Source: Treponema sp.
GTDB lineage: Bacteria; Spirochaetota; Spirochaetia; Treponematales; Breznakiellaceae
DNA length: 40,113 bases
NCBI GenBank assembly: GCA_031288975.1
Contig: JAITQK010000076.1
Span: 1 to 40,113 of the forward strand
Reading direction: 5' to 3'
The position numbers and the translations under genes were made by a program. Below the pieces are notes generated by a model that saw only the letters and a program-made list of their open reading frames with translations, was not told the origin of the DNA and did not search any database. Shown here in pieces: positions 19,553 to 27,001 of this stretch. Every line of letters starts with the position of its first letter. Position 1 is the stretch's first letter.

Positions 19553-19657
19553 CTGTGATTATATTCTTAGCGGGGTTTTCTCATAAAAGCATAGCTTTCT
19601 TGCCTATAAAAAATAAAATAAATAAATGCCGGTACCCTGACGAAAAACGGTGGGGTA
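19553..19657. other. Spacer between the palindrome and the plus-strand promoter
   Basis: AT-rich intergenic sequence with no gene, RNA fold or repeat that I can support. Together with 19231-19552 and 19658-19781 it forms the shared control region of the two head-to-head lipoprotein operons. Confidence 0.5.
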
Positions 19658-19686
19658 TTGAAAATTTCTCCTGGAAATCGTATCAT
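19658..19686 (+). promoter_or_regulatory. Sigma-70-type promoter for the plus-strand lipoprotein operon
   Basis: TTGAAA (19658-19663), 17-nt spacer, TATCAT (19681-19686). Transcription would begin near 19693, inside the G-tract of the hairpin that follows, giving an untranslated leader of about 90 nt. Confidence 0.5.
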
Positions 19687-19689
19687 TAA

Positions 19690-19715
19690 GGGGGGAAAAA
19701 TCCCCCCGCACCCCC
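19690..19715 (+). other. G-tract with two competing C-tracts in the mRNA leader
   Basis: Six G (19690-19695), then A5, then six C (19702-19707), GCA and five C (19711-19715). GGGGGGA and TCCCCCC can form a perfect 7-bp hairpin with a 4-nt loop; the second C-tract could pair with the same G-tract, so two alternative folds exist. Confidence 0.5.
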
Positions 19716-19723
19716 AAAAAGGC

Positions 19724-19760
19724 GTCTGGCCGTGTTCCATGGGAGACCGTGGATTGAAAA
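19724..19760 (+). repeat. Degenerate CRISPR-repeat-like sequence
   Basis: GTCT (19724-19727) and AGAC (19744-19747) form the outer arms of a poor hairpin; it is followed by CGTGGATTGAAA (19748-19759), identical to the 3' handle of the solitary CRISPR repeat at 24149-24180. No second copy and no spacer-like spacing is seen nearby. It lies just upstream of the ribosome-binding site of the plus-strand lipoprotein gene. Confidence 0.4.
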
Positions 19761-19781
19761 AGAAAGAGAAAGGAGTCTGTG

Positions 19782-21980
19782 ATGAATTATAACAAACCGT
19801 TTTGGGGCCTATGCTCCATTATAACCGTCCTGTTTATAAGCGCCTGCCCCGGGACATTTAATATGCCCGAAAAGGTGAAGATTACCGGTAGTCCCACCTT
19901 GGCCGTCCCCCTGGGTGGGCCAGGTTTTGACATAGATGAGTATCTGTCTATCAGCAGTGTCCAGGCTATGATTGGTGGTGAGGGGGAAAGTTCCGGTTTA
20001 GCGGCGTATGAGTATGTCGGTGCCCCAGGAACCAATCCCACCCAGACCTTCCTCATCCATTATCCTATTGATGCAATAGAGTATAAAATAAGCCCGGAAG
20101 CTCTGGACTTTAACCACATGCAGGAAGAAATTGAGATGCCTGAAGGTACGCCTTTTTACATAAAAATTCCCGAAATAAAACCAACATCAATGCTTGAAAT
20201 TGTTATACACATTTCGGAGGATATTAAGAATTTGGTAAGTCGTGCTTCAGATGATGATCCTATTACGCTGCCTGGAGATTTTGGTCCTATTTTATTGAAT
20301 TTGGCCGGACCCGGTTTTAATCGAGCGAAAATCGGCACTGGTAGGCTGGTTTTTGGAAATGAAGGGGAGAACCTGAATTTTTCGGAGGTGTCTTTTACGC
20401 TGAAAGGCGGCTCTATACCGGACCAGCAGATAAACGGCCAAGATCGGACCTGTCCTCTGAATGGAAAGGTTATTTTTGAAGATACGAACATAAGCCTAAG
20501 CGGGACCATCAAAACCACCGCCGGGATGCTCAAAAACAAGGCAGAGTTAAGTATTCCCATAGACGTGGAGATTACTCACTTCTCAGAAATAGCTATAGCA
20601 TCACCTGATAAGATTACTGCAGCAATTCCCGTTGATTTAACCTATATGGCCGCGTGGGTTGAGTCAGTTACGTTTCAGGAGCTTGGGATTACGTTGAAAA
20701 TCGCGCCCCGTATTGACGGCTTGAACGTAAATTTCCATGCTCCGGTTTTTGGTATTGATGAGACGCAGATATCATCAGAAACAACCTTCAAGGAGGGAAT
20801 GGCTTTTAGCCCTTCTGATGACTATATACTCAACCTCGCTACGGATTATAGTCCTATTACGATTACTGTTGGTCGCCAGGGAGATATACTGACTTTGTAT
20901 GATGTTACTCCCGGAGACCCAATAGAGCTTGCCATTGCGATTGAACAACCACTGGTTTTCGATTGGACGAAGGCGGTAGTATATCCAAACAAACTTTTCG
21001 ACTATTTGAAAACCGAGGCAGAGAAAGACCCGAATGCTGCTCCTCCACCTCAATTTAATGGTCACTTTCCTGCCGACGGGGAACAGGGGTTTGATCTGAG
21101 TCAATTTACCGAGTCTTTAAATAAGATCATGGCGGAAGGCGAAATTGACAAGATCGAGTTTGATAGCATTCCTATGAACCTCTATGTAACCGGGGCGGAT
21201 GTTCTGAGTAGTATCAGTATAAAGATGGATGCCCGATATAATTCAGATACAGTAGAACAACTTACAGAGGGGAAGTCTCAACCCCTTAAGAAGATGTCAG
21301 AACCCCTTGGTGATTTCCCTACCGATGGGAAATATTTAAGGAAACTGCCAGATGCATCTTTTTCAACCGACTTGGCCGGTATTTTCAATGCTAAACCAAA
21401 GGACCTCTTTCTGGACTATGAGTTAATGTTCGAGCCTACGATGACCCTCTATCGTGACGGAGGAGATTTGAACCTGACGCTCAAGCCTGATCTGATCATC
21501 GAACTGCCTCTGAAGTTTAAGATAGCAGCCGAGGAGCAACCTGATGACAATGGGAAGTACTATGCCCAATTAGACCTCCAGGGACTGATACCCCAGACGA
21601 GTGGAGATTTGCTCGGCAGAACCGGGCCGAATGATCCGCTTGATGAGAACTTGGAGTATGTTGACTATATTTCCTTTAATGTGAACTATACCAACACCCT
21701 AGGGTTAAGCGGTACCTCGATATTGCTAACGGTGAAAGAGGATACAGAGACCCGTTTTAGTAAACCCCTGCTCCAGTTATGGGATGGGGGACCCCATGAG
21801 AGTCTCTTGCAGCTTCAGGTGGAAGACCTCAAGTACCCCTTTAAGCCGGAGATCGAAATAAAGATTGATGCTAAACAACGAGGAGGTTATGGTATCCTGG
21901 AGATTAAGCAGGGCAAAAAACTGGAAATAGCCATAACGGTGCAGGTGAAAGCCAGGATCGATCAGGAAATTGAGCTATAA
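19782..21980 (+). CDS. Large lipoprotein of unknown function, copy 2
   Basis: 732 residues from ATG 19782 (AAGGAG at 19769-19774 favours it over GTG 19779). Lipoprotein signal with lipobox FISAC near residue 22. Acidic, beta-strand-rich, about 210 residues longer than the minus-strand paralogue, the extra length lying in the first half; similarity is clear at the N-terminus (a PEKVKITGSP-type start and PLGGP) and strongest in the last third (LIIELPLKFKIA, DLLGRTGPNDPLDENLEYV, YPFKPEIEI, VQVKARIDQ). Probably displayed on the periplasmic or outer face of the outer membrane with the barrel encoded 2 nt downstream. No enzymatic motif is visible; the family is unknown to me. Confidence 0.8.
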   Translation: MNYNKPFWGLCSIITVLFISACPGTFNMPEKVKITGSPTLAVPLGGPGFDIDEYLSISSVQAMIGGEGESSGLAAYEYVGAPGTNPTQTFLIHYPIDAIEYKISPEALDFNHMQEEIEMPEGTPFYIKIPEIKPTSMLEIVIHISEDIKNLVSRASDDDPITLPGDFGPILLNLAGPGFNRAKIGTGRLVFGNEGENLNFSEVSFTLKGGSIPDQQINGQDRTCPLNGKVIFEDTNISLSGTIKTTAGMLKNKAELSIPIDVEITHFSEIAIASPDKITAAIPVDLTYMAAWVESVTFQELGITLKIAPRIDGLNVNFHAPVFGIDETQISSETTFKEGMAFSPSDDYILNLATDYSPITITVGRQGDILTLYDVTPGDPIELAIAIEQPLVFDWTKAVVYPNKLFDYLKTEAEKDPNAAPPPQFNGHFPADGEQGFDLSQFTESLNKIMAEGEIDKIEFDSIPMNLYVTGADVLSSISIKMDARYNSDTVEQLTEGKSQPLKKMSEPLGDFPTDGKYLRKLPDASFSTDLAGIFNAKPKDLFLDYELMFEPTMTLYRDGGDLNLTLKPDLIIELPLKFKIAAEEQPDDNGKYYAQLDLQGLIPQTSGDLLGRTGPNDPLDENLEYVDYISFNVNYTNTLGLSGTSILLTVKEDTETRFSKPLLQLWDGGPHESLLQLQVEDLKYPFKPEIEIKIDAKQRGGYGILEIKQGKKLEIAITVQVKARIDQEIEL

Positions 21981-23233: not shown

Positions 23234-24124
23234 ATGTTTGGAACGATGTTTTTTTTGTCGCGTTCCAGTGGGGCACCCAGGTTGAAACCGGGTATGATGT
23301 GCGGTGTTTTATTCGGGGCCGCCATTGCCGTTGCCGCAGACCCTATGGTTTTTACCTACAAGGTGGGCGGATTTGAGGTTTACATGCTGGTGGAGAACCG
23401 GGGCCAGGGGCGCAGTTCCATCCTCATCGGTGTGAATGATGCCCAGCTCAAACAGTATGTACCTGGAGGTACTTATCAATCGGAGACGAATACCTTTCTC
23501 ATCCGCACCCCGGATCGTATCATCCTGGTGGATACGGGGTTTGGAAGCACGCTGTTTGAAAGCATGGGCGTCCTGGGGATAAAGCCCGAGCAGGTTGATA
23601 CGGTACTCCTCACCCACCTGCACGGTGATCACATCGGGGGGCTTCAGAAGAACGGGCAGGCACTGTTCCCCAAGGCTGAGGTGTATCTTGCCCACCAGGA
23701 ACGGGAATACTGGACCCGGACCAATGTGAATCAGGCTGCAGTGGCGGCCCTTGCCCCCTACGGTTCCAGGGTCCATACCTTTCTGCCTGGAGACTTGGGC
23801 GCTGCCGGGGAACTCTTGCCTGGGATCACCCCCATTGCGGCCTTTGGTCACACCCCGGGGCACACCCTGTACCTGGTAACATCGGCGGGGAAAAAGCTCC
23901 TCATCTGGGGCGATCTGATGCACGTTCAGGGCATACAGTTTCCCCTTCCTGGTATCTCAGTAAGCTATGACACGGACCCCGCAGCAGCCGCGGCCATACG
24001 CAGGCGGGTCTTGGAATATGCTGCCCAGAACAGCATACCGGTTGGTGGCATGCACCTGAACTACCCTGCTGTGGGCACAGTACGCGCCGAAGGGGATGGT
24101 TTCGGGTTCCGTCCGCTTAATTAA
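23234..24124 (+). CDS. Exported metallo-beta-lactamase-fold hydrolase
   Basis: 296 residues, ATG 23234 after GGGAGG. An N-terminal hydrophobic stretch (MMCGVLFGAAIAVAA, about 21-35) ending AVAA makes a signal peptide, so the enzyme should act outside the cytoplasm. The MBL metal-binding motif THLHGDHIGG is at about 127-136 (His128, His130, Asp132, His133); further ligands are His in GHTPGHTLY (about 210-218) and Asp in LLIWGDLMH (about 228-236). The NTFLIRTPDRIILVDTGFG start of the fold is also typical. Substrate unknown (lactonase-like or other hydrolase). Third gene of the plus-strand lipoprotein operon. The stop overlaps that of the convergent NFACT gene. Confidence 0.85.
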   Translation: MFGTMFFLSRSSGAPRLKPGMMCGVLFGAAIAVAADPMVFTYKVGGFEVYMLVENRGQGRSSILIGVNDAQLKQYVPGGTYQSETNTFLIRTPDRIILVDTGFGSTLFESMGVLGIKPEQVDTVLLTHLHGDHIGGLQKNGQALFPKAEVYLAHQEREYWTRTNVNQAAVAALAPYGSRVHTFLPGDLGAAGELLPGITPIAAFGHTPGHTLYLVTSAGKKLLIWGDLMHVQGIQFPLPGISVSYDTDPAAAAAIRRRVLEYAAQNSIPVGGMHLNYPAVGTVRAEGDGFGFRPLN

Positions 24125-25614
24125 GAATCCCCCACCATGAAGACACGGGTCGCGCTCCGTGGGAGCGCGTGGATTGAAACAATTCGGCACTGTTCCAGTT
24201 CCTTGAGGCGTTTTTCCTCCACTTTTATGTGGAGGTTTTTTTCCTGCGTCGGAATCACCAGCCCCTTTGGTCCGTTCTTTGAGCGGCGCAGGAATTTAAC
24301 CGAGGTGTAGAAAAGGTCCCCTTCGCCGTTGTTGCGGCCCTTTGAATAGAATATCCCCAGGTTCCCTGCGTCCAGGAGTATGTCCAGGGGAACGGTTTTG
24401 CCAGAGCGTTGCTTAATAAACACGTATGACCCGGGGTAGTCCCGGGCGTGGAGCCAGAGGTCGTTTCCTTTGACGTGTTTCCGCAGGAGTTCGTCATTTT
24501 CCGCCGCGTCCCTGCCGACGATGATGAGCCAATCCTTACGGCGGAAGGAGAGTCCCGGCCGTTTCCGGTCCAGCTTGCGATCCGGCGGCGTTTTTACACT
24601 CCCGGTTTTAAGGAGCTTGTACAGTCTGAGGGGATTGGTCTCTTCGAGGAAAGCCCCCAGGCTTGATTCGAGCCTGATCAGCTCCGCTTCCTCAGCCTCG
24701 ATTTCAGCCCGAAGCTCCGCAAGGCCCTTGGTTGCCTTCCGGTAGTGATCATAGTACTGTTCCGCCTGGGCCACCGGGCTTTTCTTGGGGTCCAGCTTAA
24801 TCCTTATGGTGTCCCCTGCAGCGTAGAAATTGTCCGCCTCAAGCCATTCGTCCCCGGTAGTGATGGATCCCATATTCGCCAGGATGATATCCCCATATTC
24901 CCTAAACCGGTCTGCAGTGGCATAATCGGTTTCCTTGACCTTGAGGTGTTCCAGGGAAACCTTCAGGCGCCCGATGCTCCCCTCAAAGCGCTTCCGTGCC
25001 TGTTCCCGCAGGGCCTCCAGGGACAGGGCGCCCCCCTGTTCGGCGTACCAGGCATCGATCTTTTCATTAAAGGAACCTGGACCGGGCAGTTCCCGGACTG
25101 CATACTCCCGGACCTTTTCAGGGGGCCTCTCCTGGGTTGCTGCCGCTGCCAGGGCTGTTTCCGGCGCATAGTGGCCGCCGCTTATTTCTCCCCGTTTGGG
25201 AAGGCGCCGCATAGCATCCAGGACCGCGCCTTCCTCATCAGTAACCACCACATTGGCCGCATTAGACCAGAGCCTGATGTAGAGCCTGAACCGGTGCACC
25301 CCCAAGCGGACTATGATGCGGATGATGCGGTTATCCCCTAACTGAACCACTTCTTCTATCCAGCCATTGACGATCCGGGAATTGAGGAATTCCGCGAAGC
25401 GCAGGGGGGTATCATTTTTAGGAATCCCCTTAAAGGTCTCGTGGATTCTGCAAGCCCCGGGGGTCAGGGCAATGAGCAGGGTTTTGCTGCCCCCTTTCCC
25501 GTGAATCTTGAGGGAGAGCACATCATAGGTACTTTGCACCACCTTCTGTATTTGAGAACCAGGCAGCTCCAGCTCAGAGAGGATGAGGTTAATTTCTTTC
25601 CAGTTAAGGGACAT
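24121..25614 (-). CDS. NFACT family (RqcH/FbpA-like) RNA-binding protein
   Basis: 497 residues, somewhat shorter than the usual 560-580. NFACT-N domain at about 1-160, a coiled-coil middle (about 190-330, LEHLKVKETDYATADRF, AELRAEIEAEEAELIRLESS) and the NFACT-R/DUF814 domain (about 365-480) with DLWLHARDYPGSYVFIKQ and KGRNNGEGDLFYTSVKF. Family members bind stalled 50S subunits and tRNA (RqcH) and were once called fibronectin-binding proteins. At the place where RqcH has Asp-Arg, I read DNR, so its Ala-tailing activity is uncertain. The last 12 or so codons come from a CRISPR repeat (24149-24180), an abnormal C-terminus. ATG 25614; the gene is divergent from the GH3 gene. Confidence 0.88.
   Translation of the reverse strand: MSLNWKEINLILSELELPGSQIQKVVQSTYDVLSLKIHGKGGSKTLLIALTPGACRIHETFKGIPKNDTPLRFAEFLNSRIVNGWIEEVVQLGDNRIIRIIVRLGVHRFRLYIRLWSNAANVVVTDEEGAVLDAMRRLPKRGEISGGHYAPETALAAAATQERPPEKVREYAVRELPGPGSFNEKIDAWYAEQGGALSLEALREQARKRFEGSIGRLKVSLEHLKVKETDYATADRFREYGDIILANMGSITTGDEWLEADNFYAAGDTIRIKLDPKKSPVAQAEQYYDHYRKATKGLAELRAEIEAEEAELIRLESSLGAFLEETNPLRLYKLLKTGSVKTPPDRKLDRKRPGLSFRRKDWLIIVGRDAAENDELLRKHVKGNDLWLHARDYPGSYVFIKQRSGKTVPLDILLDAGNLGIFYSKGRNNGEGDLFYTSVKFLRRSKNGPKGLVIPTQEKNLHIKVEEKRLKELEQCRIVSIHALPRSATRVFMVGDS
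24149..24180 (+). CRISPR. Solitary type I-C-like CRISPR repeat inside a gene end
   Basis: A 32-nt element: 8-bp perfect stem CGCGCTCC (24151-24158) / GGAGCGCG (24162-24169), loop GTG, and the 3' handle GTGGATTGAAAC (24169-24180). Length, stem position and the ATTGAAAC end match type I-C repeats. No second repeat within spacer distance and no cas genes are present. On the minus strand it is translated as the end of the NFACT protein (VSIHALPRSATR). Confidence 0.75.
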
Positions 25615-25657: not shown

Positions 25658-27001
25658 TTGACAAACCAGGAGCCGGAATCTACAATCGGCAAGGTGTTTG
25701 CCATAGCGGGGAAATATGTTACGAATTTTTTCTTTTTTTTCTTTTTTTTCTTTAGTGCCCTTGTTTGCCTGCTCATCTCGGGCTGTACGGGAGAGGTCAA
25801 AGGGGGGGTAAGGGGTAAAGCTCCGGCGGAAGCGGGCACGGCGCTTGCCAATGCTGTTGCTGAGGAGCCGGCCTTTGAAGACCCTGTGGAATACCGCGAA
25901 CAGGCGGCCCGCATCGCCGCTCTTATGGATGACCGGCTCCTTGCAGGGCAGGTGTTGATGACCGGTATTGACGGGAATGTGGTCTTGGGGGAAACCATGG
26001 AGGACCTGCTTCGGGCCAGTCCCCCAGGGGGAATCATGCTTTTTAAGTACAACCTTGACGCTGAAAAAGACCAGGTCCGTTTTTTTTTGGAAGCCTGTTC
26101 AGCCCTTATCGCGGCGGCAGCTTGTCCTGAGCCAGCCCCTGGAGGTGAAATGGGAGCAGGTCCGGGAATCGCCCCGTTTATCGCCGTGGATCACGAGGGG
26201 GGACAGGTTTTCCGTTTTGGGCCTGAGGTGGGCCGGCTTCCCGCAGCGGCTTCGTTCTGGGAGACAGCCCAATCAGCGGGAAGGGACTATGCCCTCCATG
26301 CGGTTGAGGAGGGGGCTTACCGGTCGGGACAGGAAATCCGGGACCTGGGCATCACCATGAACCTTGCCCCAGTGGCGGAGATCCTTGATGAGGAGAACGG
26401 GCTGTTTTTGGAGACCCGTTCCTACGGACCGGATCCGGTTTTCGTTGAGGCCGCAGCGGCGGCGTTTATCCAGGGTATGGAAGCGGCGGGCATTGCCTGC
26501 GTGGTGAAGCATTTCCCTGGAAACACCGGTGCAGACCCCCATAGCGGGAGAGCCGTATTATCGGTGGATGGGGAGGTCCTGGATAGGATGGTCCAGCCCT
26601 TTGCCTCCCTGATCCATCGAGTGAAGCCCCCAGGGATGATGGTCTCCCACATCGTGGTACCTGCCTGGGATGGAGAACACAACGCAAGCCTTTCCCCCCG
26701 GGTCATCCAGGATTGGCTCCGGGGGAACCTGGGATTTACCGGTATCCTGTTGGCAGATGATTTTTCTATGGGCGCGGTGGCGGTTTTCGACTTAAGCCCC
26801 GAAGACGCAGCAGTGGAGGCCCTCAACGCGGGTATTGATATGGTGATGACCTGGCCCCGGAACCTGAGTGCTGTACACGGCGCAATCCTCGCTGCAGTAC
26901 AGGAGGGCCGCCTCCCCAGGGAACGGCTTCGGCAGGCAGTGGAACAGATCCTGTTTGAGAAAATCCGGTATGGACTGGTGCCGGAGAACAATGGATGGTG
27001 A
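25658..27001 (+). CDS. GH3 family (NagZ-like) beta-N-acetylhexosaminidase lipoprotein
   Basis: Predicted exported glycosidase of family GH3, probably acting on peptidoglycan-derived N-acetylglucosamine. The open frame gives up to 447 residues; the start is unclear because no ATG exists in frame (TTG 25658 or GTG 25694). A poly-Phe stretch from a T-tract forms the signal, followed by the lipobox LLISGC. NagZ marks: FIAVDHEGGQVFRF, KHFPGNTGADPHSG (acid/base His) and the nucleophile Asp in LADDFSMGAV. An out-of-frame ATG (25716) with a GGGGA site precedes the tract, so the gene may be frame-shifted in this clone (see findings). Its end overlaps the pseudouridine synthase start. Confidence 0.8.
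   Translation: MTNQEPESTIGKVFAIAGKYVTNFFFFFFFFFSALVCLLISGCTGEVKGGVRGKAPAEAGTALANAVAEEPAFEDPVEYREQAARIAALMDDRLLAGQVLMTGIDGNVVLGETMEDLLRASPPGGIMLFKYNLDAEKDQVRFFLEACSALIAAAACPEPAPGGEMGAGPGIAPFIAVDHEGGQVFRFGPEVGRLPAAASFWETAQSAGRDYALHAVEEGAYRSGQEIRDLGITMNLAPVAEILDEENGLFLETRSYGPDPVFVEAAAAAFIQGMEAAGIACVVKHFPGNTGADPHSGRAVLSVDGEVLDRMVQPFASLIHRVKPPGMMVSHIVVPAWDGEHNASLSPRVIQDWLRGNLGFTGILLADDFSMGAVAVFDLSPEDAAVEALNAGIDMVMTWPRNLSAVHGAILAAVQEGRLPRERLRQAVEQILFEKIRYGLVPENNGW

Follow-up and report, generated by a model that had tools for sequence, protein, structure and literature searches.

A dispersed, hairpin-rich element with a type I-C CRISPR-like repeat as its 3' end in Treponema and related genera

Why should the last codons of a treponemal NFACT-family gene be written by what looks like a single type I-C CRISPR repeat? 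The 32-mer in question, GTCGCGCTCCGTGGGAGCGCGTGGATTGAAAC, was read on the plus strand of the window (the whole stretch of DNA that was analyzed, 40,113 nucleotides), in which no CRISPR array was found. A sequence-only reading had recognized a perfect 8-bp stem and a type I-C tail in it and had proposed three origins, namely, a collapsed array, an off-target insertion, or a repeat reused as a hairpin between two convergent genes. The analysis reported here points elsewhere: with a probability of roughly 0.7, the 32-mer terminates a mobile element, rich in hairpins, non-coding, and non-autonomous, which occurs in dispersed copies and carries a type I-C repeat as its fixed 3' end. That the element constitutes a mobile family is well supported.

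The repeat at the end of the NFACT gene

The 32-mer folds into a perfect 8-bp stem with a 3-nt loop (-14.7 kcal/mol, z -3.1). With type I-C direct repeats it shares the length of 32 nt, the GTCGC start, the stem, and the GTGGATTGAAAC end, and it is identical to two array repeats of relatives at 28/32 and 29/32 positions and to five others at 25 to 27/32. Both the stem and the I-C tail were confirmed. The terminal motif GTGGATTGAAAC occurs exactly once in the window; when one mismatch is allowed, there are two matches against 0.20 expected, and the second (at position 19749) is part of another copy of the element. The only Rfam match of the window 32-mer is to CRISPR-DR9, at 20.6 bits and thus below the gathering score of 45; a search of 18 of 19 loci with the element (L015 was left out) returned no Rfam match at the gathering threshold except a tRNA.

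The closest relative with this locus, L180, carries an NFACT gene that is 96% identical and has no repeat. Its empty site reads CCGCTTAATTAA, 22 nt, and AATCCGG, against CCGCTTAATTAA, 56 nt, and AATTCGG in the window, and the 22 nt that were replaced carried the normal NFACT stop. In L180 and eight other loci, the protein continues from CRI or CRV into EK in 9/9 cases, with the stop directly after EK in six, one residue later in two (L184 and L186), and twelve residues later in one (L181). The window protein reads CRIVSIHALP... at this point, and because EK follows CRI/CRV in all nine relatives read, the window end represents the derived state. Read from 24180 downward through the element, the ORF gives VSIHALPRSATRVFMVGDS and a stop, i.e., 19 residues, so that the last 19 codons plus stop (24121-24180) consist of element and host junction in place of the normal EK-stop. 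Hence, the earlier proposal that the repeat lies in frame in the minus-strand gene and supplies its C terminus was roughly right, and the comparison with close relatives bears out that inserted sequence extended the protein. The stop codon of the convergent metallo-beta-lactamase-fold gene, TAA at 24122-24124, is host sequence and is present at the empty site too. The 19-residue replacement of the NFACT EK-stop is the one visible effect of the window copy. This copy has no evident regulatory role, lying as it does where two convergent genes end. No promoter-like site was found at it.

Table 1. Features of the window that bear on the element, with the basis of each assignment
Feature	Positions	Strand	Basis
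Type I-C CRISPR-repeat-like 3' terminal module, 32 nt	24149..24180	+	Sequence, genome copies, array-repeat comparison, fold, Rfam sub-threshold match
8-bp hairpin; 24151-24158 pairs with 24162-24169	24151..24169	+	Fold
Inserted element, short form; 56 nt absent from empty site	24125..24180	+	Covariance model R1, 60.2 bits, E 1.2e-14; L180 empty site
AATCC; predicted partner GGATT (24171-24175), closing stem of element	24126..24130	+	Fold; 28 long-form copies
NFACT-family gene (NFACT domains by Pfam)	24121..25614	-	ORF and Pfam
Metallo-beta-lactamase-fold gene, convergent to NFACT	23234..24124	+	ORF, Pfam, empty-site comparison
Second, decayed long-form element copy	19617..19760	+	R1 matches, sequence, fold z -2.65; start 19617 set by eye
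Promoter-like TTGAAA-17-TATCAT inside second copy	19658..19686	+	10/12, best of 4 in the intergenic region, where shuffles expect 1.2 at >=9/12
ORF downstream of second copy, GTG 19779 or ATG 19782	19779..21980	+	ORF list

Anatomy, spread, and insertion of the element

Alignment of the copies revealed about 30-60 nt common to them 5' of the 32-nt repeat. The order of modules is AATAAAGAATCC, usually a GC hairpin (GCCGCAGAGCGGC), GGGGTATTAAACCCC, GTGAAG...GGCGCTGG, and then the repeat, with total sizes ranging from about 56 nt in short forms to 180 nt in long ones. Long forms (about 165-180 nt) hold an extra middle module with TATTGAAG-N17-TATNNT, and two more hairpins. Of 45 long forms counted, 37 matched the search expression for a promoter-like site, TTGAAG/TTGCAG-N-TATNNT, and 36 of these 37 have a 17-nt spacing; the commonest -10 hexamer, TATCGT (29/37), is a weak match. 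Read in reverse, the 5' end of the element resembles the hairpin of an intrinsic terminator. Folding is pronounced in a 177-nt long form of genome G001 (z -6.2), and 28 long forms have a consensus structure in common that is closed by AATCC/GGATT, each of the five column pairs being standard in 26-28 of the 28 copies; the RNAalifold covariation term is small (-1.11), with two-sided changes in 4/41 pairs. Near the element ends, only this 5-bp pair could count as a terminal inverted repeat, and there are no long ones. Among 30 central-module loci read (from 76 matches), the I-C tail is present at <=2 mismatches in 23; the other seven, judged by eye, comprise two with a decayed tail, one cut by a contig end, and four without a tail. 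An alternative 5' module was seen in L317, L339, L342, L350, and L364, which start with TCAAGTTTAGC, often after GTGGG, and not with AATAAAGAATCC.

The window holds a short and a long version. The R1 match to the copy at the NFACT gene spans 24116-24180, its first bases being host TTAATTAA microhomology, and this short form is missing the GC hairpin. The second copy gave R1 matches at 19622-19669 (the 5' half, E 0.54) and 19685-19760 (E 0.0012), and points the same way as the ORF behind it, with a Shine-Dalgarno-like AAAGGAG and the ATG at 19782 following immediately.

The repeat had been taken as solitary, which is true only locally: the 2.80-Mb assembly (80% complete, 248 contigs) contains 19 dispersed copies at <=3 mismatches, each alone on its contig, against 0 for a reversed-pattern control, and R1 finds 27. 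R1 counts are 27, 11, and 32 in three congeneric genomes and 27 and 23 in two of another genus. Across the family, the element was detected in 25 of 195 genomes searched (R1, E<=1e-6), some with many near-identical copies; genera g1, g4, and g10 and one genome of g23 hold many copies. All genomes are fragmented MAGs, in which copies often lie at contig ends and binning errors are possible. Near-identical long forms occur in several genomes, and the element has spread recently in them. The treponemes that carry it presumably come from termite guts, to judge by isolate naming. Many copies unrelated to CRISPR had been named as an outcome that would count against the CRISPR interpretation; copies are indeed many, but they are CRISPR-like, so the link to CRISPR survives in the form of a mobile element ending in a CRISPR repeat.

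Insertion could be followed at a second empty site, where the copy in genome G132 was compared with four congeners. Here, 10-14 nt were replaced that had stood between CTTTAAT (CTTTAAC in one congener) and AAACAAGGGC-like sequence, and the insertion adds 12 nt of AAAC/AAAT-type tail. Neither of the two empty sites has a target-site duplication; both show small target deletions and microhomology instead. Thus, the element inserts as a unit with small target deletions. Flanking sequences are biased on the 5' side toward T at -3 (70%) and -2 (68%; n=96) and on the 3' side toward A, which stands at +1 and at +2 in 82% of cases (n=148) and recurs at +5 and +6. REP/BIME, BOX, ERIC, and MITE sequences are likewise short, non-coding, hairpin-rich, modular, mostly intergenic, and present in many copies. 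The element differs from them in its CRISPR-repeat 3' end and in the lack of a target-site duplication at the two empty sites; since there are no long terminal inverted repeats either, it is not a textbook MITE. In many copies (L338, L344, L369, L354, L320, and others), the final GAAAC gives way to runs of the tetranucleotides AAAC, AAAT, or AGAC; in L338, 12 nt of such a run are absent from the empty site. These runs resemble the slippage tails of retroposons.

Type I-C systems and the probable acquisition of the repeat

The absence of cas genes that had been noted near the repeat is true of its immediate surroundings, where it stands alone, but not of the genome, another contig of which (C100) encodes type I-C effector proteins: cas5c (214 bits, NCBIfam cut-off 85), cas8c (556 bits, cut-off 219), a contig-cut cas7 above its NCBIfam cut-off, and a partial cas3 identified by PADLOC models. 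Cas1 was not found in this genome (G000) or in G001 and G002; the break of contig C100 falls within cas7, and the G002 contig does not include the cas genes beyond cas5c. In G057, cas1, a cas2-like gene (by eye), and a canonical leader are present, and the contig ends where the array should begin. A type I-C system with effector genes and neither adaptation genes nor an array was considered and rejected as an assembly effect. Bona fide I-C arrays, with a 66-nt period, are found in genomes of the family (e.g., G133, G020, and G027), and G133 combines Cas5d, Cas1, and a 12-repeat array on one contig with dispersed elements. As to gene order, an opposite-strand block, by eye mazG-ppx-ppk, separates cas3 from cas5c-cas8c-cas7 in G000 (L264, on C100) and G002 (L265, on C10), and G057 (L266) has other genes upstream of cas5c and an HNH-like gene between cas7 and cas1.

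How might a hairpin element have come to end in such a repeat? By eye, relatives with the 5' module and no tail were recognized in other genera (L282 in G117, L060 in G007, L063/L074 in G006, and the G183 copy, L283/L389). Among 16 extra loci examined, ten (L272-L281) have an I-C tail, complete or decayed, five are the tail-less copies just named, and one (L082) could be placed in neither group. Because related 5' modules without the I-C repeat occur in other genera, the order of element first and repeat second is favored: an older hairpin element without the I-C repeat probably captured one, although loss in the tail-less relatives may have occurred instead. A viral or plasmid origin of the element was rejected: the exact pattern of its core had 0 matches in IMG/VR viral contigs, the long form had no match in phage and plasmid collections, and a 17-mer from the 5' module occurred in eight stretches of viral contigs, never ahead of an I-C tail, a number near chance by our own estimate. 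All copies seen lie on MAG contigs, and for single copies an unrecognized prophage is possible. In the titles and abstract openings of open-licence PMC literature on dispersed CRISPR or treponeme repeats, no such element appeared.

Selection on the repeat and its possible role

To judge from 131 unique cores (26 of 179 copies, with no gap-free 32-mer at <=9 mismatches, were dropped), each stem pair is standard in 114-125. Common, within-genus one-sided stem changes kept the pair in a ratio of 112:22 (126:66 for all one-sided changes minus 14:44 for rare ones); rare, copy-specific ones kept it in only 14/58, so that resident copies appear largely to decay. Two-sided changes kept pairing in 11/11 rare and 0/5 common cases. 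C>T outnumbers G>A by 98:45 in stems against 56:63 at unpaired positions (p 6e-4, with copies not independent of one another). Copies within a genus are in general not independent, which makes the p-values rough. We read these substitution patterns as a structure that is kept in spreading lineages and mostly decays in resident copies. When orthologous copies were compared in 22 groups, neither hairpin nor tail was better conserved than the flanks.

Orientation was scored in two sets. The first (97 loci, being part of the R1 matches in five genomes, with the weakest left out and one pattern match added) has a 3'-side gene that is co-oriented in 68 and opposed in 15; 12 loci lie inside called ORFs, and two have no gene. 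The second (82 copies from genome-search places that were refound locally, with 15 weaker of 97 matches left out) gave a ratio of 35:26, with 17 inside ORFs and 4 unassigned. Collapsed from 179 copies to 143 loci, the ratio is 21:2 at loci present in two or more genomes (p 6.6e-5), 31:22 at private near-identical loci (not significant), and 25:13 at private diverged ones, where private means that no other fetched locus matches and some may have unfetched orthologs. Shared and private near-identical loci differ (Fisher p 0.006), and the contrast is not uniform across genera, private loci of g1 alone giving 21:5. The ratios of the private near-identical copies and of the second set suggest that the bias arises mainly by retention. 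Given the resemblance of the reversed 5' end to an intrinsic terminator, purging of antisense copies would be a sufficient cause; the orientation bias of retained copies thus needs no regulatory function.

Four accounts of the repeat have to be weighed against these data. That it is left over from a type I-C array that collapsed or was dispersed, its leader and repeats scattered by recombination, would fit the arrays in the family and the effector genes in the window genome, but it is extremely improbable: array leaders (GACACAGAAAA...TTCGCA...TTTGACA) have nothing visible in common with the 5' part of the element, and in place of tandem copies, spacers, and an I-C leader there are dozens of single, dispersed copies fused to common non-CRISPR 5' modules of their own, which, like the empty sites, contradict a collapsed array. 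Off-target insertion by Cas proteins found no support either, nor did reuse between convergent genes as the reason for the repeat's existence. A host regulon, in which Cas5c would process the copies retained in gene leaders, or these copies would govern translation of the gene that follows in some other way, draws on the co-orientation of the first set and the shared loci and on intact cas5c and cas8c in G000 and G057. We consider it improbable, given that the bias seems due mainly to retention and that antisense copies before genes could be purged without any regulatory function. Moreover, the orthologous groups show no extra conservation of hairpin and tail, the window copy precedes no gene, and the downstream genes are mixed (among ten proteins, SAM synthetase, starch synthase, rpS15, adenylate kinase, T6SS VipA, Pta, and others).

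In the reading that we favor overall, the element is a chain of GC-rich hairpins with AATCC...GGATT as its closing stem, and a putative mobilizing enzyme would act on it as single-stranded RNA or ssDNA, with the terminal stem and the repeat hairpin folded. Within this reading there remain two accounts of the repeat. In the first, whose chances we put at somewhat short of even, the repeat would be a structural passenger, a convenient terminal hairpin for mobilization that does not come into contact with Cas proteins. Consistent with this are the many element-carrying genomes with no detectable cas5d, the base pairs between the tail and the 5' end of the element itself, and the common variants that keep pairing; against it, the full 32-nt I-C signature, including the unpaired starting GT and final GAAAC, is the consensus in all four genera compared, which is more than a hairpin alone needs. 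The second, which we regard as unlikely, adds a decoy function resembling that of Racrs: transcribed from the promoter-like site of the long form, a solitary repeat would be bound and cut by Cas5c and titrate Cas5c/Cas7 away from type I-C interference, which would protect the element or its carrier. A precedent lies in the solitary repeat units of phages, which inhibit CRISPR by such a decoy route (PMC10651486). The array repeat of G133 and the dispersed consensus of g10/g4 agree at positions 1-7 and 17-32 and differ only at 8, 9, 11, 14, and 16, in the upper stem and loop; the promoter-like spacing is nearly constant; and Cas5d is commoner in element genomes (6/25 versus 16/170 others; Fisher p 0.043, kinship ignored), with Cas1 at 4/25 versus 15/170 (p 0.28). 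On the other side, Cas5d was not detected in 19 of the 25 element genomes (one of them G124, which is 90% complete), no promoter-like site is present at the window copy and the usual -10 hexamer is weak, viral, phage, and plasmid records lack the core or long form as searched, and the hairpin of old copies is conserved no better than its flanks.

As described in PMC10651486, Racrs are, like the element, single CRISPR-repeat mimics without array or cas neighbors whose hosts are enriched for the same subtype; the search for them covered prophages, plasmids, and viral contigs, whereas the element is chromosomal, exists in dozens of copies, and is part of a mobile hairpin element. It is tempting to go further and suppose that the element spreads an RNA anti-CRISPR, each copy transcribing or supplying a Cas5c-cleavable repeat that blunts I-C immunity and seeding leader processing sites of which some are retained. 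We hold this extended claim to be rather doubtful; if true, one mobile family would both blunt type I-C immunity and place Cas5c sites in host gene leaders. Another lone CRISPR-repeat-like unit outside an array is known from crRNA-like control RNAs such as CreA; the element differs in that no toxin partner or ordered guide was found and its copies decay freely.

Palindromic interspersed repeats and solitary CRISPR repeats have been known separately; here, the fixed 3' end of a chromosomal mobile family mimics a complete CRISPR repeat, and at least four genera within a single bacterial family carry it. This offers a natural, testable case of whether non-viral mobile DNA uses CRISPR mimicry. The element also accounts for stray "orphan repeats", which would mislead array finders, and its insertions rewrite gene ends. 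Elsewhere in the window, an ORF at 25658-27001 crosses a long T run at about 25725-25760 (translated as a run of F), possibly a phase-variable tract or an assembly error.
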